From Bacteriovoracaceae bacterium (GTDB lineage: Bacteria > Bdellovibrionota > Bacteriovoracia > Bacteriovoracales > Bacteriovoracaceae): 64,000 bases of DNA. A program made the translations under genes and the position numbers. Of the stretch, positions 564 to 28,820 are shown in pieces; position 1 is the first letter of the stretch; each line of letters opens with the position of its first letter. Below the pieces are notes generated by a model that saw only the letters and a program-made list of their open reading frames with translations, did not search any database and was not told where the DNA came from. The stretch lies in the NCBI GenBank assembly GCA_023701435.1, contig JAMPXB010000002.1:112171-176170 (forward strand), written 5' to 3'.

Positions 564-592
564 GATAGGAAAGTCAAAGAAAAGGAGTGCTT

Positions 593-1246
593 ATGCAATT
601 TGCTGATCAACCATTGTCGGAATTGGCCATCAAACTACCGATGGCCACAGAAATTTTTCGTAAAAATCGTTTAGACTTTTGCTGTGGGGGAAAACAAACC
701 CTACGGGAAGCCTGTGTGAAAAGAAATCTTGATTTAAATGCTTTAGTTAAGCAACTAGAAGGGCTGACTCCTAAAGATGATCCGACCTTTAGTGAGATGC
801 CTTTGGATAAAATGACCTTCTATATTGTGGATCGATATCACAATGATCTTCGTAGAAGATTCCCTGAACTTTTAGCTCTCTCTCAAAAAGTAGAACAAGT
901 TCATGCTGAACATTCCGCATGTCCAACAGGTCTCTTTTCGCTGTTGAGTGATATGCATAATGAGATGTTGATGCATATGTTGAAAGAGGAGAATGTCTTA
1001 TTTCCCATGATTCAAAATGGGGCCGGTCATAATGCTTTTATGCCAATTAAAGTAATGAATGCCGAACATGAATCCCACGGTAAGCAACTTGAGGAAGCTC
1101 ACAGATTGACTTCTGATTTTGTTCCACCAGAAGGGGCCTGTGGAACCTGGCGGGCCTTATATGCAGGACTTGAAAAATTAGAAGAAGAGATCATGGATCA
1201 CATCCATCTTGAAAATAATATTCTTTTTCCTCGGGCCTTGGGCTAA
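593..1246 (+). CDS. ytfE: RIC/YtfE/ScdA di-iron repair protein
   Basis: Di-iron protein that helps restore iron-sulfur clusters damaged by NO or peroxide; cytoplasmic, 217 residues, full family length. The N-terminal ScdA/DUF542 domain carries the LDFCCGG motif (Cys30-Cys31). The rest is a hemerythrin-like four-helix bundle with repeated H..E ligands, for example HLENNILFP near the C-terminus. ATG 593 is preferred to an in-frame GTG at 587 because AAAGGAG ends at 587, six bases upstream. The NorR sites and sigma-54 promoter in front predict strict induction by NO. Confidence 0.93.
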   Translation: MQFADQPLSELAIKLPMATEIFRKNRLDFCCGGKQTLREACVKRNLDLNALVKQLEGLTPKDDPTFSEMPLDKMTFYIVDRYHNDLRRRFPELLALSQKVEQVHAEHSACPTGLFSLLSDMHNEMLMHMLKEENVLFPMIQNGAGHNAFMPIKVMNAEHESHGKQLEEAHRLTSDFVPPEGACGTWRALYAGLEKLEEEIMDHIHLENNILFPRALG

Positions 1247-1368: not shown

Positions 1369-1410
1369 CTGATATCTGTCATGTTTGTTCTTTTACCTGA
1401 TTGATATATT
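1369..1410 (+). promoter_or_regulatory. FNR-like class II promoter of the nos cluster
   Basis: CTGATATCTGTCAT (1369-1382) matches TGAY-N4-RTCA. A -10 box TATATT (1405-1410) puts the start at ~1417, exactly 41.5 bp from the site centre. The -10 box lies inside a separate 8-bp inverted repeat (TTGATATA at 1401-1408, TATATCAA at 1416-1423) that could hold a second regulator. Confidence 0.7.
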
Positions 1411-1458
1411 TTACATATATCAAAAGAGTGATCTTCAACAACTCTAAGAGGAAGAAAT

Positions 1459-3375
1459 ATGAAACCAATCTTTGTTGCTTTATGTCTCATGCTTCTGCTC
1501 TCTGCCTGCTCTAAAAAAACGGGCGAAGAACAAAATGCTGAACTGTCTGACCAGTTTGTGAATGGTGAGCTTGCCGAAATCGCAAAGGCCCGTGGCCTTA
1601 AACCCGATGATCTTGTATCAGCAGTTAAAACTTACAATCCAAGCGGTGCACTGGATGAATACCTGGCCTTCTTTGGCACTGGTGTCTCTGGTCGTTTGGC
1701 AGTTGTAGGTATGCCTTCAATGAAAATTCTGAAATACGTGGCAGTTTTCTCTGCAGAGCCATGGCAGGGATTTGCTTTTGATGATGAAAGTAAAGCGATT
1801 ATTAAAGGCAGTGCTCGCGAAGAAATTGAATATAGCTTTGGTGACATGGGAACTCCGGCACTCTCGCTTTCGAAGGGAATCCATGACGGCAGGGCCTTGT
1901 TTGTAGCCGATGGAGCTAACGGACGTATCGGTATTGTAGATCTTGCTGAATACGAAACAAAACAAATCGTAACCCATCCTTATCTAAGAAATAGTAACGC
2001 CGACATTTCTGTCAGTGCCAATTCAGAGTATGTTGCCCAGACCACAGCTAATCCTGAATTTTTTATGAGTGCAGGACATGAAAGTAAGCCTATTGGTGGA
2101 GCAAGTTTTTGGCGATTTATTGAAAAAGAAATAGATGGGCATAAGCACTTTTTTATTGATCCTTCAACTTCCTTTACAGTGCTATTACCGAAAGGAAAAC
2201 AATCTTCACCGGCAATGGGGAGAGGTGATAGTGATGGTTTGATGCTTTCAATTACTCAAGATGATAAACCTCATCTAAACGTAATTGACTGGAAAAAAGC
2301 TGAAAGCTTGATTTCCACTAAAGCTTTTAAAGTAAATGGGCATTTTACTCTGGATGAGAAAATAGCACTGGCCTCAAAGGTCTTGGTCCGCCATGAGCTT
2401 CCAGCCGGCGCCTATAAGGTTATGATCTCTGGTAACGGTAAGTATGCTGCTATTTCTAGTAAAACCAGTTCAAATCTCCATTTGCTTGATTTAAAAACTG
2501 TAGCAACCGGATCTATTTCACTTACCCGTATAGACGTGGGGGGAGCATCGGTTGATGCTGCTTTTACAGATAAAAATCTTTATGTGACTGTCCATAATCC
2601 AAATAAGGTTGTGAAGATCAGTCTTTCCGACAAATCTGTTAAATCCAGTCACTCTTTGGATTTTCCTGCAGGAAGTATCATCATCCCTGAAGCGGATACA
2701 AATAAAACTCAGGAGCGCTACGCTGTTATCGTTAACCACTCGCCTTATGGAAGATTCACAAAGGTCGGGCCGCAAACTGGATTGTCTGCTCACTTATTGG
2801 ACATTCGTGAAGATAAAATGAGCAGCATCTATGATGCCTCGATCCCGCAATCAACTCGTCTGGCCGGTGTCGTGATGTCGACTTCCATCAATAAACCTAT
2901 CTTCCGCTATAAAATCGGTACTGATCCAAGATCAGGACTCATCTCTTCTTACAAAACCCCATCTGGGCAGGAAAAAGTTGTAAGAGATGGAAAGCGTGTC
3001 CACGTATATGCCACTGTGATTCGAAGTCACATCACTCCAGATTATATTGAAGTGGAGCAAGGTGATACTGTGAGTATTCACATTACCAGTAATGAGCAGT
3101 CAAGAGATCAGACTCACGGTTTTACTATTGACACATACAACGTTCACGGAAGCTGGGAGCCGGGAAAAACTGCCACTGTTACTTTTGTAGCAGATCGTTC
3201 CGGTGTCTTCCCGTTCTATTGCACAGAGTTTTGTTCTGCTCTTCACTTAGAAATGCAAGGCTACTTATTGGTCAAGCCTATGAGTGATAAGAAAATTTCT
3301 CAGAATGATAGCTTACAAAAATTACGAAATAACCCAAAAATGAAGAGTTTCTTCAATTATATAAAAGGTGAATAA
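1459..3375 (+). CDS. nosZ: NosZ-like subunit with CuA only (CuZ ligands lost)
   Basis: 638-residue homolog of nitrous oxide reductase: beta-propeller followed by a cupredoxin domain. The N-terminus is lipoprotein-like (lipobox LSAC, Cys17). The CuA site is complete: His553 in THGF, then Cys588, Cys592, His596 and Met599 in CTEFCSALHLEM. All seven CuZ histidine positions are replaced: the HH pair is Met130-Gly131, and by alignment to the next gene the others are Asn180, Ala316, Ser364, a GHL position (apparently Gly) and an EPH position (apparently Leu). The propeller otherwise aligns well (PSMKILKY, DDESKAII, YETKQI), with an open frame and a GAGGAAG ribosome site. It cannot reduce N2O alone and probably passes electrons to the partner encoded 2 bp downstream. 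A decaying duplicate is the alternative, but perfect CuA conservation argues against it. Confidence 0.9.
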   Translation: MKPIFVALCLMLLLSACSKKTGEEQNAELSDQFVNGELAEIAKARGLKPDDLVSAVKTYNPSGALDEYLAFFGTGVSGRLAVVGMPSMKILKYVAVFSAEPWQGFAFDDESKAIIKGSAREEIEYSFGDMGTPALSLSKGIHDGRALFVADGANGRIGIVDLAEYETKQIVTHPYLRNSNADISVSANSEYVAQTTANPEFFMSAGHESKPIGGASFWRFIEKEIDGHKHFFIDPSTSFTVLLPKGKQSSPAMGRGDSDGLMLSITQDDKPHLNVIDWKKAESLISTKAFKVNGHFTLDEKIALASKVLVRHELPAGAYKVMISGNGKYAAISSKTSSNLHLLDLKTVATGSISLTRIDVGGASVDAAFTDKNLYVTVHNPNKVVKISLSDKSVKSSHSLDFPAGSIIIPEADTNKTQERYAVIVNHSPYGRFTKVGPQTGLSAHLLDIREDKMSSIYDASIPQSTRLAGVVMSTSINKPIFRYKIGTDPRSGLISSYKTPSGQEKVVRDGKRVHVYATVIRSHITPDYIEVEQGDTVSIHITSNEQSRDQTHGFTIDTYNVHGSWEPGKTATVTFVADRSGVFPFYCTEFCSALHLEMQGYLLVKPMSDKKISQNDSLQKLRNNPKMKSFFNYIKGE

Positions 3376-3376
3376 C

Positions 3377-5698
3377 ATGAAAAATAGATGTCTCACATTC
3401 ATGGCCTTCGTCAGTATAGTGGGATCAGCTTATGCTGACAGTAATTTAACCCAAAAACTCATGGATATCGCCAAGGAGAGAAAACTTAAACCGGATGATG
3501 TTTTATCGGCCGTGCAAACTTTCACTCCCGCAGGCAAAGAAGATGAGTTCCTTTGTGTGAACTCCGGTGGACAGGCCGCTTCGGCCATCCTTTATGGGGT
3601 TCCATCAATGAGAATTTATAAGTATGTGCCTACTGCTGCCCATGATCCGGCATCAGGGTATATGCATGATCTCCAAACCCGGGCAATGGTTAGAAAGGGC
3701 CGCATGATTGATTCTCAGGAATTATCCTGGGCCGACACTCACCACCCAGCCTTTTCTGAAACTAATGGGAAATATGACGGTCGGTATGCCTTTTTAAATG
3801 ACAAGGCCAATCCCCGCATATTTGTCATTGATCTTAAGGATTTCGAAACTAAGCAAGTTATCCATAATCCCATTTTCATGTCGGCCCACGGTGGTGCCTT
3901 CGCTACACCTAATACAGAATATATCGTTGAAGGTGCCCAGTATGCGGCCCCTGCTGATCGCAAGTATGTGCCACTAAATCAGGAGAACTATAACAAGCAC
4001 TATCGCGGAGGAATAACATTTCACAAGTTTGATAATGGGAAAGGGAAAATTGATCCTAAGAAATCTTTTACTGTTATTGCTCCACCTTACTCTCAGGATT
4101 TAAGTGATGCCGGGAAGGGGGAGAGTTACGGCTACAGCTTTACTAACTCTTTTTGTTCTGAGCGCTACATTGGAACAGGCCCGGATGGGAAGCAGCCTCC
4201 CTTTGAAGCAGGTTGTTCTGCCCGGGATACCGACTTTATGCATGTTGTTCACTGGCAAAAAGCTGAAGAGTTGTTTAAGAAGGGCAAATTTAAAATGGTC
4301 AACAACCATGCGGTTATTCCTATGGACGTAGCTGCTAAGGAAGGAGTGCTTTTTTTAATTCCTGAGCCGAAGTCACCGCACGGTAATGATGTTTCCCCTG
4401 ATGGGCGTTTCATCATTGTTGCAGGGAAATTGGATACCCACGCTTCTGTCTATGATTTCCGTAAAATTAAAAAGCTTGTGGAAGATAAGGATTTTGCCGG
4501 TCATGATGAGTACGGAATTCCTATTCTTGATCTTCAGAAATCGCTCCATGGTCAAGTACAAGTGGGTCTGGGACCTCTTCACACTCAGTATGGCTCTGAA
4601 CCAGGAGTGGTTTACACTTCATTGTATCTTGATTCACAAGTTGTAAAATGGGATTACATCAACAAGAAAGTCCTGGATAAGGTTTCAGTTAACTACAACA
4701 TTGGCCACCTGGTTTCAATGCAAGGGGACTCCATTGAACCGGCCGGAAAATATTTGATTGCTCTCAATAAACTGGCAATCGACAGATTTGACCCGGTAGG
4801 TCCTTTACTGCCTCAGAACCACCAGCTCATTGACACTTCTAAACCTAAGATGCGGGTGATTTATGATCTACCCCTTCCATTAGGTGAGCCTCATTATACT
4901 GTCTGTATTGACAATAAGAAGCTCAGTCCAATTACAACTTATCCCATTGGAACTGATCCAGTTGAGATGAAAATTTCATCTGTTGCAACCATGAAGGGTA
5001 AAGAGAAAGTGCTTCGTAAAGGTAAGAAAGTTGAAATCTTTGGAACTCTTTCACGTCATGGAATTGTTCCCATGAATGTTGATGTTACCCAGGGTGATGA
5101 AGTGATCTTCCACTTAACTAACATCGAACAGGAAGCAGGAAAGCTCATTAAGTTCACTGTCAATGGCATGGGTGTACTGGGAGTTTTTACTCCAGGAAAA
5201 ACATCGAGCTTAAGGTTTGTGGCCTCTCAAAAAGGCAGTTACTCTTACAGTGCTGAGGATATCGCTTCTCCTTTTGGAGTTCAGGAATATGGTCAGTTAA
5301 ATGTGAAGTATGACCATCAGTTTGAGAATCGTCGTCAAGAAGCAAGAAAACTTGAGTCAGAATATGTCGCGGCCCTCTTCAAGCTTCCAGAGGTTGATTC
5401 TAAAGTCGCTTCTCTAGAAAAACTTCATCCGGGAGCAATTAAATTTGAAGAGTATGGTTGTATTGGATGTCACATTCATGGTGAAGCCGAGACTGCTCCG
5501 GATCTCACTGACGTCACTGTTCGTCGATCCAAGGACTGGATCAAGAAGTTCGTGGCCAATCCTGAGAACTACTATACTGATCCGACAATTGCTCCTCTGG
5601 TAGCAAAATACGCTCTGGAAATGCCAAACCTGGAGGTACCTCCTGAAGATATTGACCAGATTATTGAATACCTGGATCAATTTAAGACTAAAAAATAG
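3377..5698 (+). CDS. nosZ: NosZ-like catalytic subunit: CuZ only, fused cytochrome c
   Basis: 773 residues. A Sec signal (cleavage likely after AYA) is followed by the NosZ propeller. All seven CuZ histidines are in place: His122-His123 (ADTHHP), His171 (SAHGG), His335 (SPHGND), His402 (GPLHT), His444 (IGHL) and His506 (GEPH). The cupredoxin domain is present but every CuA ligand is gone: an ungapped alignment with the upstream protein gives Ala626, Ala630, Gly634 and Glu637 at the Cys, Cys, His and Met positions, and Ile at the first histidine. A C-terminal cytochrome c domain has CIGCH (695-699), as in clade II cNosZ of Wolinella type. ATG 3377 follows AAAAGG and is preferred to GTG 3368. 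The cognate CuA would come from the upstream subunit. Confidence 0.93.
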   Translation: MKNRCLTFMAFVSIVGSAYADSNLTQKLMDIAKERKLKPDDVLSAVQTFTPAGKEDEFLCVNSGGQAASAILYGVPSMRIYKYVPTAAHDPASGYMHDLQTRAMVRKGRMIDSQELSWADTHHPAFSETNGKYDGRYAFLNDKANPRIFVIDLKDFETKQVIHNPIFMSAHGGAFATPNTEYIVEGAQYAAPADRKYVPLNQENYNKHYRGGITFHKFDNGKGKIDPKKSFTVIAPPYSQDLSDAGKGESYGYSFTNSFCSERYIGTGPDGKQPPFEAGCSARDTDFMHVVHWQKAEELFKKGKFKMVNNHAVIPMDVAAKEGVLFLIPEPKSPHGNDVSPDGRFIIVAGKLDTHASVYDFRKIKKLVEDKDFAGHDEYGIPILDLQKSLHGQVQVGLGPLHTQYGSEPGVVYTSLYLDSQVVKWDYINKKVLDKVSVNYNIGHLVSMQGDSIEPAGKYLIALNKLAIDRFDPVGPLLPQNHQLIDTSKPKMRVIYDLPLPLGEPHYTVCIDNKKLSPITTYPIGTDPVEMKISSVATMKGKEKVLRKGKKVEIFGTLSRHGIVPMNVDVTQGDEVIFHLTNIEQEAGKLIKFTVNGMGVLGVFTPGKTSSLRFVASQKGSYSYSAEDIASPFGVQEYGQLNVKYDHQFENRRQEARKLESEYVAALFKLPEVDSKVASLEKLHPGAIKFEEYGCIGCHIHGEAETAPDLTDVTVRRSKDWIKKFVANPENYYTDPTIAPLVAKYALEMPNLEVPPEDIDQIIEYLDQFKTKK

Positions 5699-5706: not shown

Positions 5707-6981
5707 ATGAAGCAGCTCCGGTTCTTAATAATATTCATCTTGTCATCATGGGCCCTCTTGGGGGCCTGTGATGACAGCATGAATTCCCAAGCGCCAAGTG
5801 AGGGGTGGCATCAGGAAGTTAAGACCGGACCTTTACAAAAAGAAATAAACAAACTTTTGCCCAACCAAACTCTCAAGCTCTCTCCAGGTCTTCATCACGG
5901 GCCGATTCATATCAAAACTCCGGGAGTAAAGATCGAAGGTTTACCCGGGACTATCATTACCGGCGATGAAATTGGAAGTGTTATAGTGATAGAGGCCAAT
6001 GACGTCACTATCAAAGGCCTGACCATCAAGGGCTCAGGTCTCTCTTATACTCAAGCGGATTCAGGGATTGGTCTCAGATCGGTTAGCAACATTAAACTTC
6101 TGGAAAATAAGATCGAGGATTGTCTTTTTGGTATAGATGTCTACAGCGGGAATAATAACCTTATTCAAGACAATGTTATTTCCTCTAAGAATCTTGAAAT
6201 CGGTCTGCGCGGTGACGCTATCCGTTTGTGGTCTGTCACAAATTCAAAAGTGTTAAACAATCAATGGAGCCACTCTCGTGATGTGGTGTCCTGGTATTCC
6301 CAAAAAATTGATTTTCATGGGAATAGAGGAAGTGATTCCCGCTACAGTATTCATAGCATGTACAGTAAGGGACTAAAGATTCAGAACAATACTTTTAAGA
6401 GAAATCAAGTGGGAATCTTTCTGATGTATGGAAGTGATTTCATTATCAGTAATAACTATATCGAAAGGGCCCAGGGTGCGACTGGGATGGGCATAGGGCT
6501 TAAAGAGACTTCCAATATCATCGCTCAAAATAACACCATTAATTATTCTGCTGTCGGTGTTCTGGTGGATAACTCACCATTTAATTCCGGAAGCAGAAAC
6601 TGGTTTCATGGGAATAAATTTTCCTTCAACGGTAAAGGTGTTGTTCTGAGCAATGATTTAGTGGGGGGCGAGTTCAAAAGAAATTCTTTCGTTGGGAACT
6701 TGCAGGATGTGGATACTGAGCACAGGAGAGGAAGTCAGAGTGTTTGGGATAAAAATTACTGGGATAAGTATGTGGGTTTTGATGAGGATAAAAATGACAT
6801 CGGAGATACCCCTTTTGTGATCAGAATTTACGGAGATTCACTCAGGAAATCAAACCCAAAGTCATCACTCTTCTATGGCACTCCACTTTTTACTTTAATG
6901 GGAATTATTGAAGAGGTGGCCAATCTGGGGGAGCCGATTATCGTCTTGATCGATAAGAACCCTAATATTTTAAAGAAGTGA
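5707..6981 (+). CDS. nosD: NosD, beta-helix maturation factor of NosZ
   Basis: 424-residue exported protein made of right-handed beta-helix (carbohydrate-binding/sugar-hydrolysis-like) repeats: many short turns of the type IEDCLFGIDVY and NNLIQDNVIS. In the Nos system NosD works with the NosFY transporter to assemble the CuZ sulfide-copper cluster in the periplasm. A lipobox (LGAC, Cys21) makes this copy a likely lipoprotein. It starts 8 bp after the catalytic nosZ gene and overlaps the 3' neighbour's alternative GTG start, so it belongs to the same operon. No CuZ could form without it, which supports the downstream NosZ being active. Confidence 0.93.
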   Translation: MKQLRFLIIFILSSWALLGACDDSMNSQAPSEGWHQEVKTGPLQKEINKLLPNQTLKLSPGLHHGPIHIKTPGVKIEGLPGTIITGDEIGSVIVIEANDVTIKGLTIKGSGLSYTQADSGIGLRSVSNIKLLENKIEDCLFGIDVYSGNNNLIQDNVISSKNLEIGLRGDAIRLWSVTNSKVLNNQWSHSRDVVSWYSQKIDFHGNRGSDSRYSIHSMYSKGLKIQNNTFKRNQVGIFLMYGSDFIISNNYIERAQGATGMGIGLKETSNIIAQNNTINYSAVGVLVDNSPFNSGSRNWFHGNKFSFNGKGVVLSNDLVGGEFKRNSFVGNLQDVDTEHRRGSQSVWDKNYWDKYVGFDEDKNDIGDTPFVIRIYGDSLRKSNPKSSLFYGTPLFTLMGIIEEVANLGEPIIVLIDKNPNILKK

Positions 6982-6983
6982 TT

Positions 6984-7847
6984 ATGATTAAAGTACAGAA
7001 AGTCGTTAAAACCTTTAAAGCAGTTTCAGTTCTCAAGGGGCTTAGTCTGGAGATAAAACCCAGAGAGCGAGTGGCCTTAGTGGGACAAAATGGTTGTGGA
7101 AAAACAACGCTCATTAGATGTCTTCTGGGTCTGTACCGCTTTGAGGGAGATATTGAAATATTTAAATCCAATATTAAGAGTGAGCGTGAAGAGGCCTTAA
7201 AGAAAATCGCCTTTGTTCCCCAGACACCGCCGGCCTTAAAGAATACAGTCGGTGAGATTATAAATCTTACTTCTGAGTTATGTGGCTTTCCGGCCTCTGA
7301 GATCGACCCCGTGGCCCGACGTCTGGGTCTGGATATTTCTAAATGCAGCTCAATTCCCTTTAAGAGTCTCTCTGGTGGGATGAAGCAGAAATTGTTAATT
7401 GCCTGTGCTTTAGCACGAAAACCACAGTTACTCATTATGGATGAGCCTTCTGCTAATCTTGATCCACAGGCCAGAGCGGTCTTTTTCAAACTCCTCTCAG
7501 AGTTGCCAGAAGAGACAACAATGCTTTTAACTTCTCACCGCGTGGATGAACTCTCTGGCATTGTTTCAAGAGTGATCGAGCTTGATGCTGGAGTTATCAC
7601 CATTGATGACATCGTAGAGAGCGGTGATACCAATATCTTAACTGGCGAACAAAGTTGTGTACTTGAACTAAAACGCATCCCTGATTCAGTTCAAGCGGTA
7701 CTTCAGGAGTGGTCATTTACCGCCCAGGATAGGGATCAATTAAAGTGGGAAGGGATCATTGCTTCGGCCGATAGTTTTAGGTTTCATGCCACACTCACTA
7801 GATGGTCTGGAATAATTGAAAGTGTCAATATCAGGAGAATAAAATGA
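6984..7847 (+). CDS. nosF: NosF, ABC transporter ATPase
   Basis: 287-residue cytoplasmic ATPase that energises NosY for CuZ assembly. Walker A is GQNGCGKT (about residues 34-41), the ABC signature is LSGGM (about 130), and Walker B with the catalytic Glu is LLIMDEPSANLD. A variable ~70-residue C-terminal tail follows. ATG 6984 is chosen over the in-frame GTG at 6978, which overlaps the nosD stop; AAGAAG precedes it. The stop overlaps the nosL start (ATGA). Confidence 0.93.
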   Translation: MIKVQKVVKTFKAVSVLKGLSLEIKPRERVALVGQNGCGKTTLIRCLLGLYRFEGDIEIFKSNIKSEREEALKKIAFVPQTPPALKNTVGEIINLTSELCGFPASEIDPVARRLGLDISKCSSIPFKSLSGGMKQKLLIACALARKPQLLIMDEPSANLDPQARAVFFKLLSELPEETTMLLTSHRVDELSGIVSRVIELDAGVITIDDIVESGDTNILTGEQSCVLELKRIPDSVQAVLQEWSFTAQDRDQLKWEGIIASADSFRFHATLTRWSGIIESVNIRRIK

Positions 7848-8230
7848 AAATAATAATCACGATACTTATGATGTTAATTTTAACTTCTTGCCAGGAGTCC
7901 GGAGAACTGAAACCTCAGGAACCTTTGTGGGGTCGTGAGGGATGCGCCAGATGCAGAATGGTCTTGAGTGAAAAACGCTATGCGGTTCAAAGAGTTCTCT
8001 CTAATGGAGAAATTCATTTCTACGATGATTTAAACTGTGCCTTACAACACAAGCATGATGAAGATAAGGGCACCCTTTATGTCCATCCTCATGGCAAAGA
8101 TCAGTGGATTCTTGCAGAACAAGCTAAGTATCAGTCAGGTTTAAGAACTCCCATGAATTCGGGATATGGTGCCGTTAATGAGGGAGGAGAGATAACTTTC
8201 TCTGAAGTTCAGGAAAAGTTTAAGGAATAA
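7844..8230 (+). CDS. nosL: NosL, copper-chaperone lipoprotein
   Basis: 128 residues with a lipobox (LTSC, Cys16). The CARCRM motif (Cys34, Cys37, Met39) matches the Cu(I)-binding region of NosL, and the FYDDLNCAL segment is typical of the family. NosL delivers copper to NosD/NosZ in the periplasm. The start follows AGGAG and overlaps the nosF stop. It is a little shorter than many NosL proteins but shows no sign of truncation. Confidence 0.88.
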   Translation: MKIIITILMMLILTSCQESGELKPQEPLWGREGCARCRMVLSEKRYAVQRVLSNGEIHFYDDLNCALQHKHDEDKGTLYVHPHGKDQWILAEQAKYQSGLRTPMNSGYGAVNEGGEITFSEVQEKFKE

Positions 8231-8231: not shown

Positions 8232-9059
8232 ATGAAACATACAATATTATTAACTATGCTTGAAATGAAGGAAACTTTCCGGGCAAAATGGTATCAGTTT
8301 TATGTTCTCACTGTCGCAACCATGATCAGTATTTTCTTTTATTTTGGATTGGCAGAGTCAAGAGCGTTGGGATTCACTGGTCTAGGCCGCCTTTTGTTAA
8401 CATTGATTCAAATTAGCATTATTGTCCTTCCCATCTTTACCATGATGACCACCGTAAGGACCTTGGTAGGAGATAGAGAGGCCGGCGTTTGGGAATATAA
8501 CTTATCAGTTCCGGTTAAATTATCCTCATTTTATTGGGGTAAAGGACTTGGCCGCTTTCTTTCTTTATACCTACCTCTCGCCTTTGGAATGATTGCTGCT
8601 GGGGTGGTGACTCTGATTAGAGGCTATCCGGTTCCTTGGTTAATGATTTTTTTATATACAGGCTTTATTGGGGCCAATCTGTTATTTTTCACAGGAATTG
8701 CTTTTCTTCTTTCCGTTCTTTCAAAGACTCAGGAAATGGCCCTTGGTCTGGGATTTATATTGTGGTTAGCCTTTGAGGCCATGATTGATGCACTTCTTTT
8801 AGGTCTTTTACTCAAACAAAGAGTCTTATCTGAAATTATTCTGGGAGCTGCCTTTTTAAATCCTTTGCAGTCATTCAGGATGGCGGCCATCGGGCTGTTT
8901 GATCCGGAACTAACTGTTCTCGGACCTATTGCTTATACCATCATCGAAAAGATTGGGCTTAATAATCTTCTTGCTTGGGCCATTTTGTGGCCTTCGCTGG
9001 CAGGGCTAGGACTATCTGCCTTGGGTTACGTTGTCTTTAAAAAGAAGGATTTGATATGA
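8232..9059 (+). CDS. nosY: NosY, ABC transporter permease
   Basis: 275-residue integral membrane protein with about six hydrophobic segments, ABC-2 type. The loop TVRTLVGDREAGVWEYNLS after the second segment and the motif LNPLQSFRM are typical of NosY. It forms the NosDFY complex with NosF. It starts one base after the nosL stop, with its AAGGA ribosome site inside nosL, and overlaps the next gene by 4 bp. Confidence 0.92.
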   Translation: MKHTILLTMLEMKETFRAKWYQFYVLTVATMISIFFYFGLAESRALGFTGLGRLLLTLIQISIIVLPIFTMMTTVRTLVGDREAGVWEYNLSVPVKLSSFYWGKGLGRFLSLYLPLAFGMIAAGVVTLIRGYPVPWLMIFLYTGFIGANLLFFTGIAFLLSVLSKTQEMALGLGFILWLAFEAMIDALLLGLLLKQRVLSEIILGAAFLNPLQSFRMAAIGLFDPELTVLGPIAYTIIEKIGLNNLLAWAILWPSLAGLGLSALGYVVFKKKDLI

Positions 9060-9637
9060 AACAGATATTCTCCAAAACATTTTTCTTATCACTTATATGT
9101 GTGGTCTGTTATGGACTCGTTTACTCACAGCCGATGTGGAACTTTAAGTTCAAAGCTCCCCAGTATCCGATGGGTCTGGAGCTGGATATTTTTATGACCG
9201 GGGCCCAAGGAGATGTCGCTGAGATTGATATCATTAACCACTACATTGGGATGCAGAAGCTAGAAGATGCCGCTAAAAATGAAAAAGCGATGGCGCCCTT
9301 TGTACTAATTGGTTTGTCAGTTATTTCTCTTGCTCTTGGATTGTTTCCTAATAAAAAGTTATTCCATGTTCTTTCGTTGGCGATTTTAGGGTTTCCCCTG
9401 GCCTTTGTGGCCATTTTTCAATTGTGGCTTTATAAATTTGGGCATGAACTGAATCCTGCTGCTCCGGTGAGGCTCACTCCCTTTACTCCTGTCATCTTAG
9501 GCGAGGGGATCATTGGTCAGTTTACAACTTATGCTGTTCCGGGAAATGGATTTTATCTGACTTGTTTTGCAGCTCTTTGTGTGGTTGTGACAATCCTTAC
9601 TTCTCATAAGGACATAAGTATTGTTACTAAGCGATGA
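9056..9637 (+). CDS. Nos-cluster membrane protein with NHYIGM motif
   Basis: 193 residues and four likely membrane segments (about 8-25, 82-99, 104-130 and 167-185). Two extracytoplasmic loops carry conserved-looking residues: FKAPQYPMGLEL and INHYIGM in the first, and PFTPVILGEGIIGQFTTYA in the second. His and Met residues in INHYIGM could bind copper. I do not recognise a named family with certainty; a NosB-like role is possible. Translational overlap with nosY makes it part of the nos operon. It overlaps the convergent gene on the other strand by 11 bp. Confidence 0.75.
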   Translation: MKQIFSKTFFLSLICVVCYGLVYSQPMWNFKFKAPQYPMGLELDIFMTGAQGDVAEIDIINHYIGMQKLEDAAKNEKAMAPFVLIGLSVISLALGLFPNKKLFHVLSLAILGFPLAFVAIFQLWLYKFGHELNPAAPVRLTPFTPVILGEGIIGQFTTYAVPGNGFYLTCFAALCVVVTILTSHKDISIVTKR

Positions 9638-18117: not shown

Positions 18118-19018
18118 TCCTCTTAATCTATACTCCCGCTACATTAAAACGACCTACGGGCAAAGAGTTCAAAAAATTCCTATTGATGGAGGATTTACTT
18201 GTCCCAACCGGGATGGTTCCAAAGGTTATGGCGGTTGCACATTTTGTAATAACGACAGCTTCTCCATGGGGGTTAAGGAACATTCCATTAAGACCCAAGT
18301 TTACAACGGAATTGAACTCTATCGCCGCAGGTTCCCTGATCTTCAAAAATTTATTGTCTATTTTCAGAGCTATTCCAATACTTATAAGGACGTCAAGGAA
18401 TTGGAAAGAATATATCTGGAGGCCCTCAGTATTGAGGGAGTCATAGGAATTGCCATTGGCACAAGACCAGATTGTATTGATAAGGAAAAAATAGCATTGT
18501 TACAAAACCTGGCCCAGCACTACGAAGTAACAGTTGAATATGGAGTAGAGTCGTTAAGTGATGAAACATTAAGGAGGGTGAACCGAGGTCACAGTGTAAA
18601 AGATTTTGAATCTGCCCTTGATATGACATATGGAAGAGGAATTAAATTGTGCACCCATTTAATCCTTGGGTTCCCCTGGGAGACGGAAGACGATTTAAAG
18701 AAAACCTGTCATCGGATTAAAAAATATCCGTTAGATTTTATCAAAATTCATCAGCTCCAGGTCATCAAGGGAACAATTATGGGAGCAGAATTTGAAAAGA
18801 ACCCTTTTAAGGTCATAGGGAAAGAGGAATATTTTAAAATGCTCATGGAAATCATTTCTCACCTTGATCCAAAGATTGTGATCCAGAGGCTTTTTTCGGA
18901 TTACCACCGAGACTATTTAATCTCAGGGCCCTGGCCACAATCTTTATCTCAATTAACTTCTGAATTTATTTCATACTTGCAATCTTCTCGCTCCTTTCAG
19001 GGTAAGAATTTTTTTTGA
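18110..19018 (+). CDS. YhcC-like radical SAM protein (TIGR01212 type)
   Basis: 302 residues. The N-terminal YGQRVQKIPIDGGFTCPNRDG and GGCTFCNN hold the widely spaced radical-SAM cysteines (Cys-x7-9-Cys-x2-Cys) of the YhcC/TIGR01212 family. Later motifs are YFQSYSNTY, IGTRPDCID and TVEYGVES. The reaction is unknown; an anaerobic modification role is likely since YhcC of enteric bacteria is linked to anaerobic growth. The start overlaps the 3' end of the DGC gene. It overlaps the convergent narK gene by 53 bp at the 3' end. Confidence 0.85.
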   Translation: MNNPLNLYSRYIKTTYGQRVQKIPIDGGFTCPNRDGSKGYGGCTFCNNDSFSMGVKEHSIKTQVYNGIELYRRRFPDLQKFIVYFQSYSNTYKDVKELERIYLEALSIEGVIGIAIGTRPDCIDKEKIALLQNLAQHYEVTVEYGVESLSDETLRRVNRGHSVKDFESALDMTYGRGIKLCTHLILGFPWETEDDLKKTCHRIKKYPLDFIKIHQLQVIKGTIMGAEFEKNPFKVIGKEEYFKMLMEIISHLDPKIVIQRLFSDYHRDYLISGPWPQSLSQLTSEFISYLQSSRSFQGKNFF

Positions 19019-20759
19019 AAAAATGATCTACCGAAACCTTTCCTCCGCCTTCCCAAAGGCATAGAAAGAGGGCAACCAGCACGAAGATACTGAATTGGAG
19101 CCCTTGTTGTTCAAACAGGCCTTCACCTAAGTGAATGAAAAAGATCGCCCCTAAAAGGATAGGTATATTAAGCGCCACTGCCAGTCGTGTCCCCATTCCA
19201 AAAAGAAGACAGGCCCCTCCAATAACATGAGCGGTTATGACATACCAGGAGATGACTGTCTGTGAATGGCCAATAGTGCCTGCCATAAGCTCAATGGTCT
19301 GCATGTTTAGAATGAAATAGATACCCTTAATCGCCAATGCGCCCCCTAGAAATATTCTTAGAGCATCCATGGGTCTAACCTGATAGATGAGGGGTGATAA
19401 GGAAAATCCAGGTTCTGCAGGAAGAGTCATTGATTCTTCTTTGCTGCGTTCTTTGAGGGCCTTATTTAACTCTTCACTGGCAAGTTTTTCATCTGCTTCC
19501 GAGAAGCGAACCAAAAAGACTAAAAAGGAACAACAAAAAATAATACATCCAATGATGAGAAGAGACGTTGGCCAGGAGATGTCACCATTTCTAAAAAGAA
19601 AGCTCGCTGCAACGGCGCCAATATTTCCTCCGGCGGCCACGATACCAGTGACTGATCCCAGAGCATTTTTATTTATGAAAGGAACGACCGAATAAGTTGC
19701 TCCTTCAGACATTTGAACGAATAAACTAAAGATGATCATGGAGCCAATGGCCAGAGGAAGGTTATTCATTCGGGAGAAGAGGATTAAGGCCAGGCCTTCA
19801 AATAAGATAGCAATAAAGAGCCATTTTACTCTGCCTTTGAGTCCCTCTTTTTGGCCGATACGGTCTCCTACTATTCCGCCCAAACTTCGGGCAAAGATGT
19901 TCATCAGGCCAAAAGTTCCGGCCACTAAACCGGCAGTTTTTAAACCTAATCCAAAATAATCTGTGAAGTAGAGAGCAGCAATATTATTAATTGTTATTTC
20001 TATACCAAAACATGCAGCATAAACCAAAAAAAGAATCCATACCCGAATGTCTTTGGCCGCTTCCAAAAAGCTACCTTTGTTTTTTGAAGGCCCGACGATG
20101 ACTCCTTGTTCTCTTAGTTCTTTAAAGTTTCCTCCTGGCATATCTGTGGTTAAAAAGAAATAGGCAATACCAGTGATAAAACACAGAAATCCGGCAACCA
20201 CCATTGATAGACGCCATGATTCACCGGAGGTCAGTCCCAGTGTGACAAAGCCAGCAAATATTAAGGGCATAATCATTTGAGTAACACCACCCCCTAAATT
20301 TCCCCAGCCGGCGACTGTTGCGTTAGCAGTTCCAACACAATTGGGAGCGAACATTACCGAGGTATGGTACTGAGTGATGACAAATGAAGCTCCAATGGCC
20401 CCTATGGCCAGACGAAAAATCAGAAAGGTTTCATAGTTATGTGCTAGTCCTATTCCCATAACTGGTAGAGAACCGATAGTCAGGAGTAAAGTATAAGACA
20501 AGCGGGGTCCAATTTTATCACACAGCCAGCCGATGAAGAGTCGGGCAACAATAGTGATTGCAACTGATGCTATGATGGTATTTCCGACTTGTTCTTTAGT
20601 TAGATTAAATTCATCCCGTATAATTGGCATGAGCGGGGCGATTCCAAACCAGGCAAAAAAGCATAGAAAGAAAGCAAACCAAGTCATGTGAAAGGCGCGC
20701 ATTTGTCTCGAGCTGAAATTCAGGAGGTCTATTCCTGTGGCTTTGTCATTTGATTGCAT
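18966..20759 (-). CDS. narK: NarK-type transporter fused to a DoxX domain
   Basis: 597 residues. Residues ~15-430 form a 12-helix MFS nitrate/nitrite carrier: FHMTWFAFFLCFFAWFGIAPLMP at the start, VMFAPNCVGTANATVAGWGNLGGGVTQ in the nitrate-signature region, and FGLMNIFARSLGG in the second half. After a ~35-residue linker, residues ~460-580 form a four-helix DoxX domain (ALRIFLGGALAIKGIYFIL, FIHLGEGLF). DoxX proteins are linked to quinone or thiosulfate oxidation, so this may be a transporter with a membrane redox partner. The frame is continuous across the junction. The promoter at 20789-20830 has an FNR-like box. Confidence 0.9.
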   Translation of the reverse strand: MQSNDKATGIDLLNFSSRQMRAFHMTWFAFFLCFFAWFGIAPLMPIIRDEFNLTKEQVGNTIIASVAITIVARLFIGWLCDKIGPRLSYTLLLTIGSLPVMGIGLAHNYETFLIFRLAIGAIGASFVITQYHTSVMFAPNCVGTANATVAGWGNLGGGVTQMIMPLIFAGFVTLGLTSGESWRLSMVVAGFLCFITGIAYFFLTTDMPGGNFKELREQGVIVGPSKNKGSFLEAAKDIRVWILFLVYAACFGIEITINNIAALYFTDYFGLGLKTAGLVAGTFGLMNIFARSLGGIVGDRIGQKEGLKGRVKWLFIAILFEGLALILFSRMNNLPLAIGSMIIFSLFVQMSEGATYSVVPFINKNALGSVTGIVAAGGNIGAVAASFLFRNGDISWPTSLLIIGCIIFCCSFLVFLVRFSEADEKLASEELNKALKERSKEESMTLPAEPGFSLSPLIYQVRPMDALRIFLGGALAIKGIYFILNMQTIELMAGTIGHSQTVISWYVITAHVIGGACLLFGMGTRLAVALNIPILLGAIFFIHLGEGLFEQQGLQFSIFVLVALFLCLWEGGGKVSVDHFFKKNSYPERSEKIASMK

Positions 20760-20788
20760 ATTAATTCCTCTGATTAATGATTACTCAA

Positions 20789-20830
20789 TATTTAACATTC
20801 ATTAAAAGAAATTAAGCTGATTTTAATCAG
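20789..20830 (-). promoter_or_regulatory. FNR-like class II promoter of narK-doxX
   Basis: CTGATTTTAATCAG (20817-20830) is a perfect palindrome of the TGAY-N4-RTCA type. Reading leftward, TAAATA (20789-20794) is placed as a -10 box, start ~20782, box at -41.5, 22 bp before the ATG. Confidence 0.7.
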
Positions 20831-20874
20831 TTTGAGCAATGTTTGAAATCAGTAGTCTTACTGTGTATGGAAAC

Positions 20875-20888
20875 ATGACAGGAGTCAT
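20875..20888. promoter_or_regulatory. FNR-like site without a matched -10 box
   Basis: ATGACAGGAGTCAT matches TGAY-N4-RTCA, but no -10 sequence lies at the class II distance on either side. It may be an upstream site for nar or narK in the 307-bp divergent region 20760-21066, which holds no gene I can support. Confidence 0.5.
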
Positions 20889-20980
20889 GGAAAATGTAGG
20901 AAAAATCAAATCCCGGAATTTTAGCAGGGGTTTCGTTAAAAAAAGTATCTCTTAAAACATGATCACAAAAATTTAATTTA

Positions 20981-21022
20981 GTGATCCATCTCATGTCTAA
21001 GATTTTAGACTTCAATTAAGAT
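20981..21022 (+). promoter_or_regulatory. Candidate nar promoter with degenerate FNR-like box
   Basis: GTGATCCATCTCAT (20981-20994) has one mismatch in the right half of TGAY-N4-RTCA. TAAGAT (21017-21022) fits as a -10 box, start ~21029, box at -41.5. The start would fall inside the palindrome at 21020-21048. Confidence 0.5.
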
Positions 21023-21048
21023 TCAATATATTTTTAATATATTGAATC
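21020..21048. repeat. 29-bp perfect palindrome in the nar leader
   Basis: Two 13-bp arms (GATTCAATATATT and its complement) with a three-base spacer, 18 bp before the narC start codon. It could be an operator, or an RNA hairpin next to the ribosome site (TTGAGGAAG). Confidence 0.75.
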
Positions 21049-21066
21049 TGTGTTGAGGAAGAACTT

Positions 21067-21891
21067 ATGACGAAAGTACGCACGTTACTCTCTGCTGCGC
21101 TGGTAGTGGTGTTATTTACTCCTTTAACTGCTTTCCCTTTTGATGCCCCTGAATACTTTGAGAACAAGTGTTTAAGCTGCCATAGCATAGGTGGCGGGGA
21201 TGAGGTAGGTCCTGATCTAAAAGGTGTGGGAGAGAAACGTTCAGAGAAATGGCTAATTGAGTTTATCCGCGACTCTGAGAAAGTTATTAGTTCTGGAGAT
21301 CCTGTCGCCAACGAGTTATTTGCCAAGTTTAAATATAAGAAAATGCCGGCCCAGGAACTTACTGATGCCCAGATTAAGTCTTTATTAGAATTCATAAAAA
21401 CTGGCAAAGGTGGAGGTGCTTCCTCTTATAGAGCTGCGACTGAGGCCAATACCTTCGATGTATCAAAAGGACATGACTTATTCATTGGTACTGCCAAATT
21501 TAAAAATGGCGGCCCTTCCTGTCTTTCTTGCCATAGCGGCGGTCCCAACCTCACAAGTTTCGGCGGGGGAACTCTCGGACCTGATCTTGTTACAAAAAGT
21601 TACGCCGATTATCAGGACAAAGGACTGAATAAGGTTTTGTCTAAGATTTCTTTTCCAACCATGGCCGAAATTTATACTGCCTCTCCCCTCACTGAGGAGG
21701 AAAACTATTATCTCAGGGCCTTCCTTCGCGTGGAAAATCTTAAGTATCAGCAAACAATTAATGAAGCTCACCACAATGGAGATCCGAAAAATAAATTTGT
21801 ACTTCTAGGAATGGTGGGAGCGTTATCGGGCCTATTGGGGGCAGATGCAATTTTCCGTAAAAGAAGAAAGAAAACCAAAAAGCCTTACTGA
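21067..21891 (+). CDS. narC: NarC-like diheme cytochrome c
   Basis: 274 residues: signal peptide, two c-type heme sites (CLSCH at 35-39 and 152-156) and a C-terminal membrane helix (about 243-262) followed by a basic tail. Placed first in narCGHJI, it resembles NarC of Thermus, a cytochrome needed for attachment and electron exchange of the nitrate reductase. Methionines in KKMPAQELTD and the second domain could be axial ligands. A GAGGAAG ribosome site lies just after the 29-bp palindrome. It likely links Nar to periplasmic carriers or to alternative complex III downstream. Confidence 0.85.
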   Translation: MTKVRTLLSAALVVVLFTPLTAFPFDAPEYFENKCLSCHSIGGGDEVGPDLKGVGEKRSEKWLIEFIRDSEKVISSGDPVANELFAKFKYKKMPAQELTDAQIKSLLEFIKTGKGGGASSYRAATEANTFDVSKGHDLFIGTAKFKNGGPSCLSCHSGGPNLTSFGGGTLGPDLVTKSYADYQDKGLNKVLSKISFPTMAEIYTASPLTEEENYYLRAFLRVENLKYQQTINEAHHNGDPKNKFVLLGMVGALSGLLGADAIFRKRRKKTKKPY

Positions 21892-21917
21892 AAAAAATAG
21901 ATTAGGAGAAGAATAAT

Positions 21918-24900: not shown

Positions 24901-25535
24901 ATACTGCCTTCTCCTATAACATCGAGCGGATGGTTCCCTGGAGAACTTTAACAGGACGCCAGAGTTTGTATCTCGATCACGAAGGCTACATTGCTTTTGA
25001 TGAACATCTTCCCACTTATAAACCATCTCCAAAACCGGATGCTTATGGAGATCTCAGAAAAACTAAAGCTGAACCAAACAGCATTAAACTCAATTATCTC
25101 ACTCCTCATGGTAAATGGCATATTCACTCCACTTACGGTGACACTCTACGCATGTTGACTTTATCCAGAGGGGCGGAACCTTTCTGGATGAATCCAAAAG
25201 ACGCGGAAAAAATCGGAGTCAGGGATAATGACTGGGTTGAAGTTTATAACGACAACGGTGTGGTTTGTACTCGGGCCAATGTATCGATCCGGATTCCGCA
25301 AGGCATGTGTATTGTCTACCACGCGACAGAAAGAACTTATTCAGCTCCTAGGACACAGATGCGAGGGAATAAGCGAGCTGGAATGAACAACTCACTCACA
25401 AGAGTGCATTTGAAACCTAATCTCATGATGGGCGGATATGGACAGTTCAGTTACCACTTCAATTATTGGGGTCCGACTGGAGTTAACCGGGATACACACA
25501 TTCTAGTCCGTAAGATGGACAAAGTTGATTGGTAG
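21918..25535 (+). CDS. narG: Respiratory nitrate reductase alpha subunit
   Basis: 1205 residues, normal NarG length. It reduces nitrate to nitrite at a Mo-bisMGD centre. The N-terminal HGVNCTGSC provides His34 and the first cysteines of the FS0 4Fe-4S cluster. Asp207 in YCDLPPASP is the molybdenum ligand characteristic of NarG. The cofactor-binding end is seen in [14 protein letters not shown] and [14 protein letters not shown]. No Tat motif is seen at the N-terminus, so the catalytic side is most likely cytoplasmic. The gene starts 26 bp after narC and its end is followed 8 bp later by the narH start. Confidence 0.97.
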
Positions 25536-25543
25536 GAGAATAT

Positions 25544-27031: not shown

Positions 27032-27585
27032 TGAAAGAAAATCTCTATTCTCTTTTTGCTTCTGCCCTTTGTTATCCCGAAGCTTTTACCAGGGACAATG
27101 CAAAGGAGCTTGAAGCCGAATTAAATGAAATCGATGCCAAATATGCTGAGCTCATTAGGCCCTACATGTATTTTTTGGGTAATGAGACGATGGAAAGTCT
27201 GGAAGAGGCCTATACCAATACCTTTGACATCCAGGCCGTCTGTCCCCTGGAAATTGGGTATACTCTTTTTGGTGAAGATTACAAACGCGGAGAGTTTTTA
27301 GTAAGAATGTCTGAACTTCACAAAGAGCATAACACGCCACTAGTGAGTTCTGAATTAGGCGACTATTTACCCAATGTTCTTTTACTTCTGGAAAGAATGC
27401 CAGATGGACCGTTTAAAAAAGATTTCATTGAAAAAATTCTGATGCCAGCGATGGGAAAAATGCTCAAAAATTTTGATGAAAAAAAAGATGCAAATCCTTT
27501 TTCACTTCCTTTGAGGGTGATGAATGCAATGCTCGCTTCTTCTTACACATTAAACCCTAAGATATTAGAGGCACGATATGAGTGA
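27031..27585 (+). CDS. narJ: NarJ chaperone
   Basis: 184-residue TorD/NarJ-family chaperone that holds apo-NarG during molybdenum cofactor insertion. All-helical, with the typical start LYSLFASALCYPE and the DIQAVCPLEIGYTLFGEDYKRGEFL region. It is not part of the finished enzyme. It is coupled to narH at the start and overlaps narI by 8 bp. Confidence 0.92.
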   Translation: MKENLYSLFASALCYPEAFTRDNAKELEAELNEIDAKYAELIRPYMYFLGNETMESLEEAYTNTFDIQAVCPLEIGYTLFGEDYKRGEFLVRMSELHKEHNTPLVSSELGDYLPNVLLLLERMPDGPFKKDFIEKILMPAMGKMLKNFDEKKDANPFSLPLRVMNAMLASSYTLNPKILEARYE

Positions 27586-28264: not shown

Positions 28265-28274
28265 AGGTGAGTAG

Positions 28275-28820
28275 ATGAAAATAATTTTTACAGTTTTATT
28301 ACTTGTTGGAATAGGCCTTGGAGCGACCGAATTAATAAGTTTTAGTCGTTCAATTGATTTTACGGAAAACTACGCTCCAGTTCAACCACTTAAGTTTTCA
28401 CATAAAACCCATGCAGGTGATAACAAAATCGCATGTGTTTATTGTCACTTTTCTGCAGAACAGGGGCGCCATGCCGGTATTCCACCGGTTGGTCTTTGTA
28501 TGAATTGCCATACTCATGTGAAGAAGGATTCACCGGAAATTCAAAAAGTGGTTAAGGCAATGGACAGTGGAAAAAGTATTGAATGGCAAAAAGTCCATCA
28601 TCTTCCTGACTTTGCTTATTTTAATCACAGCCAGCATGTCAATGTCGGTAAAGTTTCCTGCCAGGATTGTCATGGTCAAGTTCAAACCATGGATGTCATG
28701 AAGCAGACCGGTAATCTTTCGATGGGTTGGTGTATTGACTGTCATCGAACTAAAGAAATAGCTCCACCACAGGATCATAAGTCCTTATCTGGCGGTGACT
28801 GCGCTAAATGTCATTATTGA
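28275..28820 (+). CDS. actA: Alternative complex III subunit A, pentaheme cytochrome c
   Basis: 181 residues with an N-terminal membrane anchor (about 4-22) and five CxxCH sites: 54-58, 75-79, 129-133, 153-157 and 176-180. HKTHAGDNKIACVYCH and LCMNCHT are typical of ActA. It is the periplasmic electron outlet of alternative complex III, which oxidises quinol and reduces cytochrome c, copper proteins or an oxidase. Its stop precedes the actB start by 7 bp. Confidence 0.92.
   Translation: MKIIFTVLLLVGIGLGATELISFSRSIDFTENYAPVQPLKFSHKTHAGDNKIACVYCHFSAEQGRHAGIPPVGLCMNCHTHVKKDSPEIQKVVKAMDSGKSIEWQKVHHLPDFAYFNHSQHVNVGKVSCQDCHGQVQTMDVMKQTGNLSMGWCIDCHRTKEIAPPQDHKSLSGGDCAKCHY

Follow-up and report, generated by a model that had tools for sequence, protein, structure and literature searches.

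Nitrous oxide (N2O), a strong greenhouse gas, is converted to N2 by the nitrous oxide reductase NosZ, which PMC13122619 calls the sole known enzyme for this reaction. Described NosZ structures are homodimers with both copper centres, CuA and CuZ, on one chain, and in the Marinobacter nauticus homodimer these centres couple across the chains, giving two couples (PMC11573801, in its accessible text). According to the same text, Ca2+ ligands (E260/D274) hold a propeller loop that touches the cupredoxin domain of the partner (PMC11573801). A fusion of NosZ with cytochrome c, cNosZ, has also been described (excerpt of PMC8139620). In DPANN archaea, NosZ-like proteins with CuA present and CuZ absent were reported with low similarity to NosZ (bit scores of 20.1 to 57.9), from MAGs without other denitrification genes, and in two MAGs a short protein with five conserved histidines is encoded directly upstream (PMC10936187, as far as its accessible text goes). 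The same authors report on a heterologous complementation test and consider negative results hard to interpret (PMC10936187). Among the matches listed in our literature search, which covered titles and abstract openings with preprints and most subscription papers outside its scope, none describes a split or heteromeric NosZ.

Tandem NosZ homologues at a nos locus

The window analysed here is a 64,000-nucleotide stretch of a Bacteriovoracaceae assembly, and all features below lie on its forward strand. The two adjacent open reading frames named in a preliminary description of this DNA were both found in place. The first, Za (1459..3375, 638 aa), is a NosZ homologue with CuA as its sole copper centre and scored 353.6 bits against TIGR04246 (cut-off 625). 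The second, Zb (3377..5698), is a CuZ-only NosZ chain with haem c and scored 682.6 bits against the same model. Because Za scores under the NosZ cut-off whereas Zb exceeds it despite lacking CuA, surveys based on a single nosZ gene would misread both.

For Zb, ATG 3377 is a likelier start than GTG 3368 (773 and 776 aa, respectively), because it lies 1 base past the Za stop, is preceded by the Shine-Dalgarno-like AAAGGTGA and has the same layout at the other four Za loci. Since this AAAGGTGA (3364..3371) falls within the 3' end of the Za gene and precedes the Zb ATG by 5 bases, translational coupling of the two genes is likely. AAAGG and a gap of 1-2 bases between Za and Zb are common to the other four loci, so that the junction is alike in 5/5. 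Zb residues are numbered below from GTG 3368.

Zb ends in a cytochrome c domain (5435..5695; PF00034, 27.7 bits, cut-off 21.3) with the haem c motif CIGCH at residues 698-702 and a single Met 50 residues later. Read by eye, the N-terminal signal of Zb is Sec-like and that of Za is lipoprotein-like, with a Cys17 that is invariant in 5/5 Za. The haem c domain and the lipoprotein-like signal are additions to the preliminary description.

Maturation genes adjoin the pair. Downstream of Zb lie nosD (5707..6981; TIGR04247, 327.6 bits, cut-off 300), an ABC ATPase in the nosF position (6978..7847; PF00005, synteny) and an ABC-2 permease in the nosY position (8232..9059; PF12679, synteny), the latter two named by position. 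Between them, 7844..8230 encodes a lipoprotein that resembles genes at the nos loci of relatives and that gave no Pfam or NCBIfam match; we take it to be nosL-like by position and weak similarity. A membrane-protein-like gene that also occurs in the nos clusters of relatives follows (9056..9637; synteny) and is presumably NosB-like, again by position. The upstream neighbour, outside the enzyme, encodes a YtfE/ScdA/RIC-type di-iron Fe-S repair protein (587..1246; TIGR03652 and NF008221 above cut-off).

Complementary copper ligands and their distribution

Za and Zb have lost opposite copper centres. In the cupredoxin domain of Za (residues 503-606, 2965..3276), the side-chain CuA ligands are complete (5/5), with His553 upstream of the motif C588-TEF-C592-SAL-H596-LE-M599 (3220..3255). 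None of the seven CuZ histidines is present in Za, where G, T, N, Y, D, S and L occupy their positions. The propeller region of Zb (3530..4957) contains all seven, at residues 125, 126, 174, 338, 405, 447 and 509; the preliminary description gave these as 122, 123, 171, 335, 402, 444 and 506, which is the count from ATG 3377, three lower. The cupredoxin domain of Zb (4997..5308; PF13473, 21.6 bits, under the cut-off of 27) has 0/5 CuA side-chain ligands, with I, A, A, G and E in their place. Neither chain thus combines seven CuZ histidines with five CuA side-chain ligands. The complementary loss claimed earlier for the two proteins was borne out in 5/5 Za and 4/4 Zb, with slightly different replacing letters among sequences, and their C-terminal alignment is indeed ungapped. 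The preliminary description had named a supply of the missing ligands by other residues as a refutation; at the lost positions there is none, His, Cys and Met being absent from the CuZ positions in 5/5 Za and from the CuA positions in 4/4 Zb, although a new site could in principle lie elsewhere in either chain.

Other residues differ between the chains as well. The equivalents of the Ca2+ ligands E260/D274 are present in 4/4 Zb and lost in 5/5 Za, and a Lys near CuZ is present in Zb. Five histidines are invariant in Za (142, 379, 398, 427 and 445), at positions where neither Zb nor the 17 canonical rows conserve His.

The tandem pair with its nosD cluster was found in four genomes, 4/26 of the genus, in conserved order and with open frames. 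Across these four assemblies, identity to the window was 66-90% for Za and 76-95% for Zb. All four, the genomes with both genes complete, show the features by which we define a split NosZ, namely linked NosZ-family genes, reciprocal site loss and a conserved pair. NosD was found in the same four genomes and gave no match in the other 22/26, which indicates that the system is rare even in close relatives. A fifth genome, G006 (another genus, 87% complete), has a complete Za followed at the contig end by the start of a Zb-like frame, about 35 codons with an in-frame stop within 60 bases of that end; Zb may therefore be broken or misassembled there. An IS-like tail was considered for this contig and rejected, the tail having no second copy in G006. 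For G081 and G086, whose Za ORFs are long, the first 47 residues were removed so that both begin at the counterpart of the ATG of the window.

Among 368 genomes of the phylum Bdellovibrionota, searched with the Za profile at E 1e-20, a threshold at which remoter NosZ may be missed, 17 further NosZ genes were found. Sixteen are canonical with both full ligand sets. The remaining one (G150), in which seven His and the CuA His are readable, is cut off by a contig end and was excluded from trees and domain counts for that reason. The same loss in 5/5 Za and 4/4 Zb, set against both sets full in 16/17 other NosZ, places the complementary pattern beyond chance. No canonical NosZ was found in the five Za-bearing assemblies. 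The preliminary description had treated a canonical gene elsewhere in the genome, together with no co-occurrence of the pair in relatives, as evidence against its reading, and the four tandem loci answer the second point. For the first, NosZ-search matches outside the pair in the source assembly (93.6% complete) reached 33.8 bits or less and were a Cu nitrite reductase and two CoxB-type proteins. A hidden canonical NosZ was thus rejected for the assembly; the remaining ~6% of the genome could still hold one, as could the missing part of the less complete G006.

The GTDB r220 contig scan gave two loci, again those of G081 and G086, and the viral contig scan found no relative. Plasmid tblastn with Za gave 147 records, all below 60% identity; among the best 15 of these 147, the highest identity was 31.4%, and by annotation alone 12 are nosZ, one is an unannotated record and two have no feature there. 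A PF18793 search gave 0 matches in the source genome and also 0 in controls, which makes it uninformative.

Domain divergence and the probable pairing of Za with Zb

The divergence of Za and Zb is reciprocal by domain. Against the four nearest canonical NosZ (G226, G058, G107 and G292), identity was 62, 65, 63 and 62% for the Za cupredoxin and 29, 29, 28 and 30% for the Za propeller, respectively. For Zb, the propeller showed 60, 58, 60 and 48% and the cupredoxin 32, 31, 35 and 30%. Among non-ligand columns invariant in these four NosZ, all Za kept 39/46 in the cupredoxin and 57/206 in the propeller, and all Zb kept 21/46 and 159/206, respectively. Quick domain trees gave stem lengths of 0.28 (cupredoxin) and 2.25 (propeller) for Za and of 1.79 and 0.54 for Zb. 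Such a reciprocal split is expected if the cupredoxin of each chain faces the propeller of its partner, the arrangement reported for NosZ (PMC11573801). In Za, the CuA side-chain ligands and the domain around them are the most conserved part. This observation argues against Za being a pseudoenzyme that matures or regulates Zb, by copper delivery or as an assembly scaffold, with CuA as a copper depot. Such a role would fit the location of Za directly 5' of Zb and the nosD cluster and its lack of CuZ, and the five invariant histidines of Za might build another site. Zb, however, has no CuA of its own, and maturation is already covered by NosD and the ABC genes, so we regard this explanation as very unlikely.

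The metal-free domains are also under purifying selection. dN/dS was 0.040-0.076 for the Za propeller (three pairs with a ratio), 0-0.026 for the Za cupredoxin (four pairs), 0.010-0.011 for the Zb propeller (two pairs) and 0.033-0.211 for the Zb cupredoxin (three pairs); these values are rough since most dS used exceeded 1. Canonical control cupredoxins gave 0.087 and 0.124. Of 20 pair-and-domain rows in all, four run on Za or Zb were saturated and yielded no ratio: those comparing the Za propeller with G082 and with G006, the Za cupredoxin with G006, and the Zb propeller with G082. Both canonical propeller rows likewise gave none. Purifying selection means that the domains are needed and says nothing on whether they pair with each other. 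It does bear on decay, in which both copies of a duplicated nosZ would be degenerating, or on an artefact of misassembly. Long stems of both copies (1.91 and 0.81) and the early stop in the Zb-like frame of G006 could be read that way. Pseudogene decay was rejected on the low dN/dS in all four domains wherever a ratio was obtained, and misassembly on the recurrence of the same structure, with open frames, in four assemblies; together they are the least probable of the explanations considered, and highly improbable.

A head-to-tail heterodimer of Za and Zb that takes the place of the NosZ homodimer is, in our view, likely. Since the canonical CuA-CuZ couple forms between chains, a Za:Zb dimer would have one working couple, with the CuA of Za facing the CuZ of Zb, and one empty couple, with the metal-free Zb cupredoxin above the metal-free Za propeller. 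Electrons would enter at the CuA site of the probably lipid-anchored Za, and N2O would be reduced at the CuZ of Zb. The haem c fused to Zb probably supplies electrons, via a linker of ~45 residues. With somewhat less assurance, we favour an obligate heterodimeric N2O reductase with a single active site per dimer, arisen by reciprocal loss of copper centres after nosZ duplication; this covers a lipid-anchored CuA chain for electron entry and a catalytic chain with CuZ and haem c. As to origin, a clade II nosZ plausibly duplicated, after which each copy is likely to have lost a different one of the two metal sites. A joint clade of Za and Zb is absent from the best tree, but a tree with such a clade is not rejected (lnL 3.36 lower, AU p 0.0995). 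A new role may have evolved for the metal-free Za propeller, with its five invariant histidines. Modelled on an alignment of six rows, the AlphaFold2 monomers had mean pLDDT of 46.1 and 42.2, which is low confidence.

The preliminary description had already read the pair as obligate partners; its facts and its evolutionary reasoning stand, and the reading as a whole is partly supported. It is now backed by the reciprocal divergence of the domains, by purifying selection acting on those without metal and by a Ca2+ clamp on the expected chain. From sequence we infer the heterodimer itself and its obligate nature, as well as a single active site, a lipid anchor on Za and the route of the electrons.

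A different arrangement explains part of the same evidence. Zb may be a complete homodimeric N2O reductase in which its own haem c replaces CuA and hands electrons directly to CuZ, with Za a transiently docking, lipid-anchored CuA carrier. Zb alone passes the NosZ cut-off, its haem c domain lies above the Pfam cut-off, its Ca2+ ligands are in place, as is the Lys close to CuZ, and the invariant lipobox-like cysteine of Za suits a membrane-bound donor. The Ca2+ clamp on Zb would fit such a homodimer equally. In the heterodimer, haem c sits on Zb, whose cupredoxin is expected over the dead Za propeller, so that haem-to-CuA transfer needs a linker reaching across; a Zb homodimer with direct haem feed would need no such reach, which would count against the heterodimer. 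However, the Za propeller, superfluous for a mere CuA shuttle, is under purifying selection. The canonical-invariant cupredoxin columns retained by Za are expected if that domain still faces a CuZ domain, and the gene junction suggests translational coupling. We therefore judge a self-sufficient Zb homodimer unlikely.

A natural heterodimer, if true, would be direct genetic proof of inter-chain electron transfer. It would also make CuA and CuZ genetically separate, so that each could be studied or copper-loaded alone, and would provide a clean case of subfunctionalisation in a homomeric metalloenzyme.

Comparison with known systems

Zb resembles clade II (Sec-dependent) NosZ in passing the TIGR04246 cut-off, in its seven CuZ histidines and in the nosD and ABC genes nearby; Za fails the same cut-off. 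Similarity to clade III lactonase-type L-NosZ (NF052460) is weak, Za and Zb scoring 97.4 and 127.4 bits, respectively, far under its cut-off of 700. Like cNosZ of the Wolinella type, Zb has a C-terminal cytochrome c fusion. Unlike cNosZ, the haem c chain has no CuA ligands (4/4 Zb). Za shares with CoxB of haem-copper oxidases a similar CuA cupredoxin (TIGR02866, 33.1 bits, cut-off 147.7) and an analogous layout, in which a separate CuA subunit serves a catalytic subunit; Za nevertheless has the NosZ propeller and is far nearer to NosZ. The DPANN NosZ-like proteins, as the accessible text describes them, resemble Za in keeping CuA without CuZ, and their upstream protein has five conserved histidines compared with seven in Zb. 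In each of the 16 complete NosZ of relatives, some with CXXCH and some lacking it, both sites share a single chain, whereas Za and Zb place them on two. The Marinobacter nauticus enzyme has the same two-domain make-up by sequence, and because its couples span two chains, such chains could feasibly divide the work. That enzyme is a homodimer with two couples, whereas Za:Zb is probably a heterodimer with one.

The Za and Zb genes and their metal sites

Za (1459-3375, plus strand) encodes a NosZ homologue of 638 aa, and the adjacent Zb (ATG 3377, its likely start, to 5698, same strand; the mechanical ORF begins at GTG 3368) encodes 773 aa. Aligned over 631 columns, the two proteins share 28% identity. 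Sec-dependent NosZ (TIGR04246) was the top NCBIfam family for both, its curated cut-off of 625 bits being exceeded by Zb (682.6 bits) and missed by Za (353.6 bits). The top PDB matches of both were solved N2O reductases. Za carries the CuA ligands H553, C588, C592, H596, and M599, and its seven CuZ positions read G, T, N, Y, D, S, and L. Zb has histidine at 7/7 CuZ positions, and its CuA positions read I, A, A, G, and E. The preliminary description had given the first protein a CuA set without CuZ histidines and the second all seven CuZ histidines without CuA ligands, and both assignments were correct in detail; its residue numbers for Zb presuppose a start at ATG 3377. It contained neither the cytochrome c domain with CIGCH at the C-terminal end of Zb (PF00034, 27.7 bits; cut-off 21.3) nor the signal of Za, lipoprotein-like by eye, with Cys17 invariant in 5/5 Za. 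A single Met lies 50 residues past CIGCH in 4/4 Zb.

At 5/5 Za loci, 1-2 bases preceded by AAAGG separate the Za stop from the Zb start, a spacing that points to translational coupling of the two genes. A perfect inverted repeat, TTGATATAT-TTTAC-ATATATCAA, lies upstream of Za at window positions 1401-1423 and is possibly a regulator site. No inverted repeat with 8-base arms and 0 mismatches was found upstream of Za in the congeneric genomes G081, G086, and G082, and G006, from another genus of the family, has only a shorter, different one there.

Distribution of the pair and canonical NosZ in relatives

Searching the order returned NosZ-family matches in 8 of 129 genomes. The full tandem was present in four of these (the window's own genome G000, G081, G082, and G086), all of the window's genus, in the order Za, Zb, nosD, ABC ATPase, nosL-like gene, permease, and 9056-type gene. 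NosD matches occurred in 4 of the 26 genus genomes, namely those with the pair. Identities to the window in G081, G082, and G086 were 90%, 66%, and 89% for Za and 95%, 76%, and 95% for Zb. In G006, Za (66% identity; 65% by BLAST) lies close to a contig end and is followed by a Zb-like frame that meets an in-frame stop after ~35 codons, within the last 60 bases of the contig (L024, 6640-6698). No second match to this contig tail was found in that assembly. Zb may be broken in G006, or the contig end may be faulty. The genomes found to carry the pair are drafts, each assembled into 7 to 70 contigs, and two are titled as metagenome-assembled Bacteriovoracaceae genomes.

When 368 genomes of the phylum were searched with the Za alignment at E 1e-20, 21 had matches. 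Among 17 NosZ genes examined, from 16 genomes other than the five bearing Za, 16 encode complete CuZ (seven histidines) and CuA (five ligands) sets. The remaining gene (G150) is truncated where its contig stops; its seven CuZ histidines and the CuA histidine can be read. None of the five Za-bearing assemblies yielded a canonical NosZ. The three weak NosZ matches outside the pair in the window's genome were a Cu nitrite reductase (309.3 bits to TIGR02376, cut-off 296.3; L004, 1045-2316 on contig 20) and two proteins of CoxB type, which scored 165.3 and 145.8 bits where the cut-off is 147.7. With this nitrite reductase, the genome may carry several denitrification steps. An anaerobic respiration island at window 18966-36161 holds a NarK-type transporter (TIGR00886, 307.2 bits, narrowly missing the cut-off of 311.7), narG (TIGR01580, 1515.1 bits) followed by nar-like genes, and an alternative complex III-like set; the nar-like genes and the latter set were named from reading ORFs.

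A separate small gene matching the Zb haem domain lies near nosZ at nine nos loci of relatives (L025, L070, L075-L080, and L083), and a C-terminal CXXCH is fused to nosZ in G349 (two genes), G213, and G269. Based on this pattern, the haem-NosZ fusion may have been gained or lost more than once. The two nosZ genes of G349 are complete and canonical and lie on different contigs (L072 and L073).

Reciprocal domain divergence and selection

Against the four nearest canonical NosZ (G226, G058, G107, and G292, in this order), the Za cupredoxin domain was 62, 65, 63, and 62% identical and its propeller 29, 29, 28, and 30%. For Zb, the propeller was 60, 58, 60, and 48% identical and the cupredoxin domain 32, 31, 35, and 30%. 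As a canonical yardstick, G058 and G107 compared with G292 gave 51-52% for the propeller and 55-59% for the cupredoxin domain. Among non-ligand columns invariant in the four, all Za kept 39/46 in the cupredoxin domain and 57/206 in the propeller (Fisher p 8e-13), and all Zb kept 21/46 and 159/206 (p 5e-5); with all 17 canonical rows, the counts were 12/13 and 16/55 for Za (p 4e-5) and 7/13 and 48/55 for Zb (p 0.013), these p-values being descriptive with columns taken as independent. In quick domain trees, midpoint-rooted for drawing, with several forks open and long branches meeting, cupredoxin and propeller stems were 0.28 and 2.25 for Za and 1.79 and 0.54 for Zb. Taken together, the identities, column retention, and stems indicate at the sequence level that each chain is retaining its own metal-bearing domain and that its other domain is drifting.

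Pairwise Nei-Gojobori dN/dS, rough because most dS values used exceeded 1 and limited to pairs yielding a ratio (others were saturated), was 0.040, 0.047, and 0.076 for the Za propeller, 0.005, 0.009, 0, and 0.026 for the Za cupredoxin domain, 0.010 and 0.011 for the Zb propeller, and 0.033, 0.034, and 0.211 for the Zb cupredoxin domain; in canonical controls the cupredoxin domain had ratios of 0.087 and 0.124, and the propeller yielded none. Constraint acts on the metal-free domains too, more weakly than on the domain of each chain that carries metal. It shows that they are needed, which is compatible with a structural part within a dimer.

Histidines 142, 379, 398, 427, and 445 of Za are invariant in 5/5 Za and are His in 0/4 Zb and 0/17 canonical rows; His 427 stands in place of the Lys near CuZ. 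They may mark a new site or remodelled surface in the metal-free propeller. Outside the haem motif, Zb cysteines 63, 263, 283, and 513 (numbered from GTG 3368) are invariant in 4/4 Zb. Cys 263 and 283, which correspond to N and M in canonical G058, lie within the Ca2+-loop region and might form a disulfide.

Proposed dimer, origin, and known systems

Compared with the Marinobacter nauticus NosZ structure (PMC11573801), 4/4 Zb retain the Ca2+ ligands corresponding to E260 and D274, and 5/5 Za lack them. The Lys near CuZ, which corresponds to K450, is present in 4/4 Zb and replaced by His in 5/5 Za. The equivalents of E465 (Gln in Zb and most canonical rows) and N321 (variable among canonical rows) were uninformative. 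From the retained and lost residues, the Zb propeller and Za cupredoxin seem to have an intact interface, and the Zb cupredoxin and Za propeller a degenerate one. Most simply read, a Za:Zb dimer would hold one working CuA-CuZ couple. Two monomer structure predictions had mean pLDDT of 46.1 and 42.2.

The haem c of Zb would presumably feed the CuA of Za. In cNosZ, a fused cytochrome c domain brings electrons to the active site, according to PMC8139620. Because the haem hangs from the Zb cupredoxin domain, a linker of ~45 residues would have to span to the CuA of Za, which is the weakest step of the mechanism. The main rival is a Zb homodimer in which the haem would pass electrons directly to CuZ.

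Za and Zb likely arose when a clade II nosZ was duplicated. The full 26-row tree grouped Za and Zb with the same-phylum canonical NosZ of G226, G058, and G107 (support 88/84), on long stems (1.91 for Za and 0.81 for Zb). The best tree lacked a joint Za+Zb clade, which the AU test nevertheless did not reject (p 0.0995).

Judged by titles and abstract openings, none of the papers listed in the literature searches dealt with a split NosZ. The nearest case is a DPANN NosZ-like protein with CuA and without CuZ, which in two MAGs has a short protein with five histidines upstream; the available excerpt of that paper (PMC10936187) contains no heterodimer proposal. The DPANN protein is much less similar to NosZ than the window's pair, and we rate Za and Zb as a new variant of the known enzyme NosZ.
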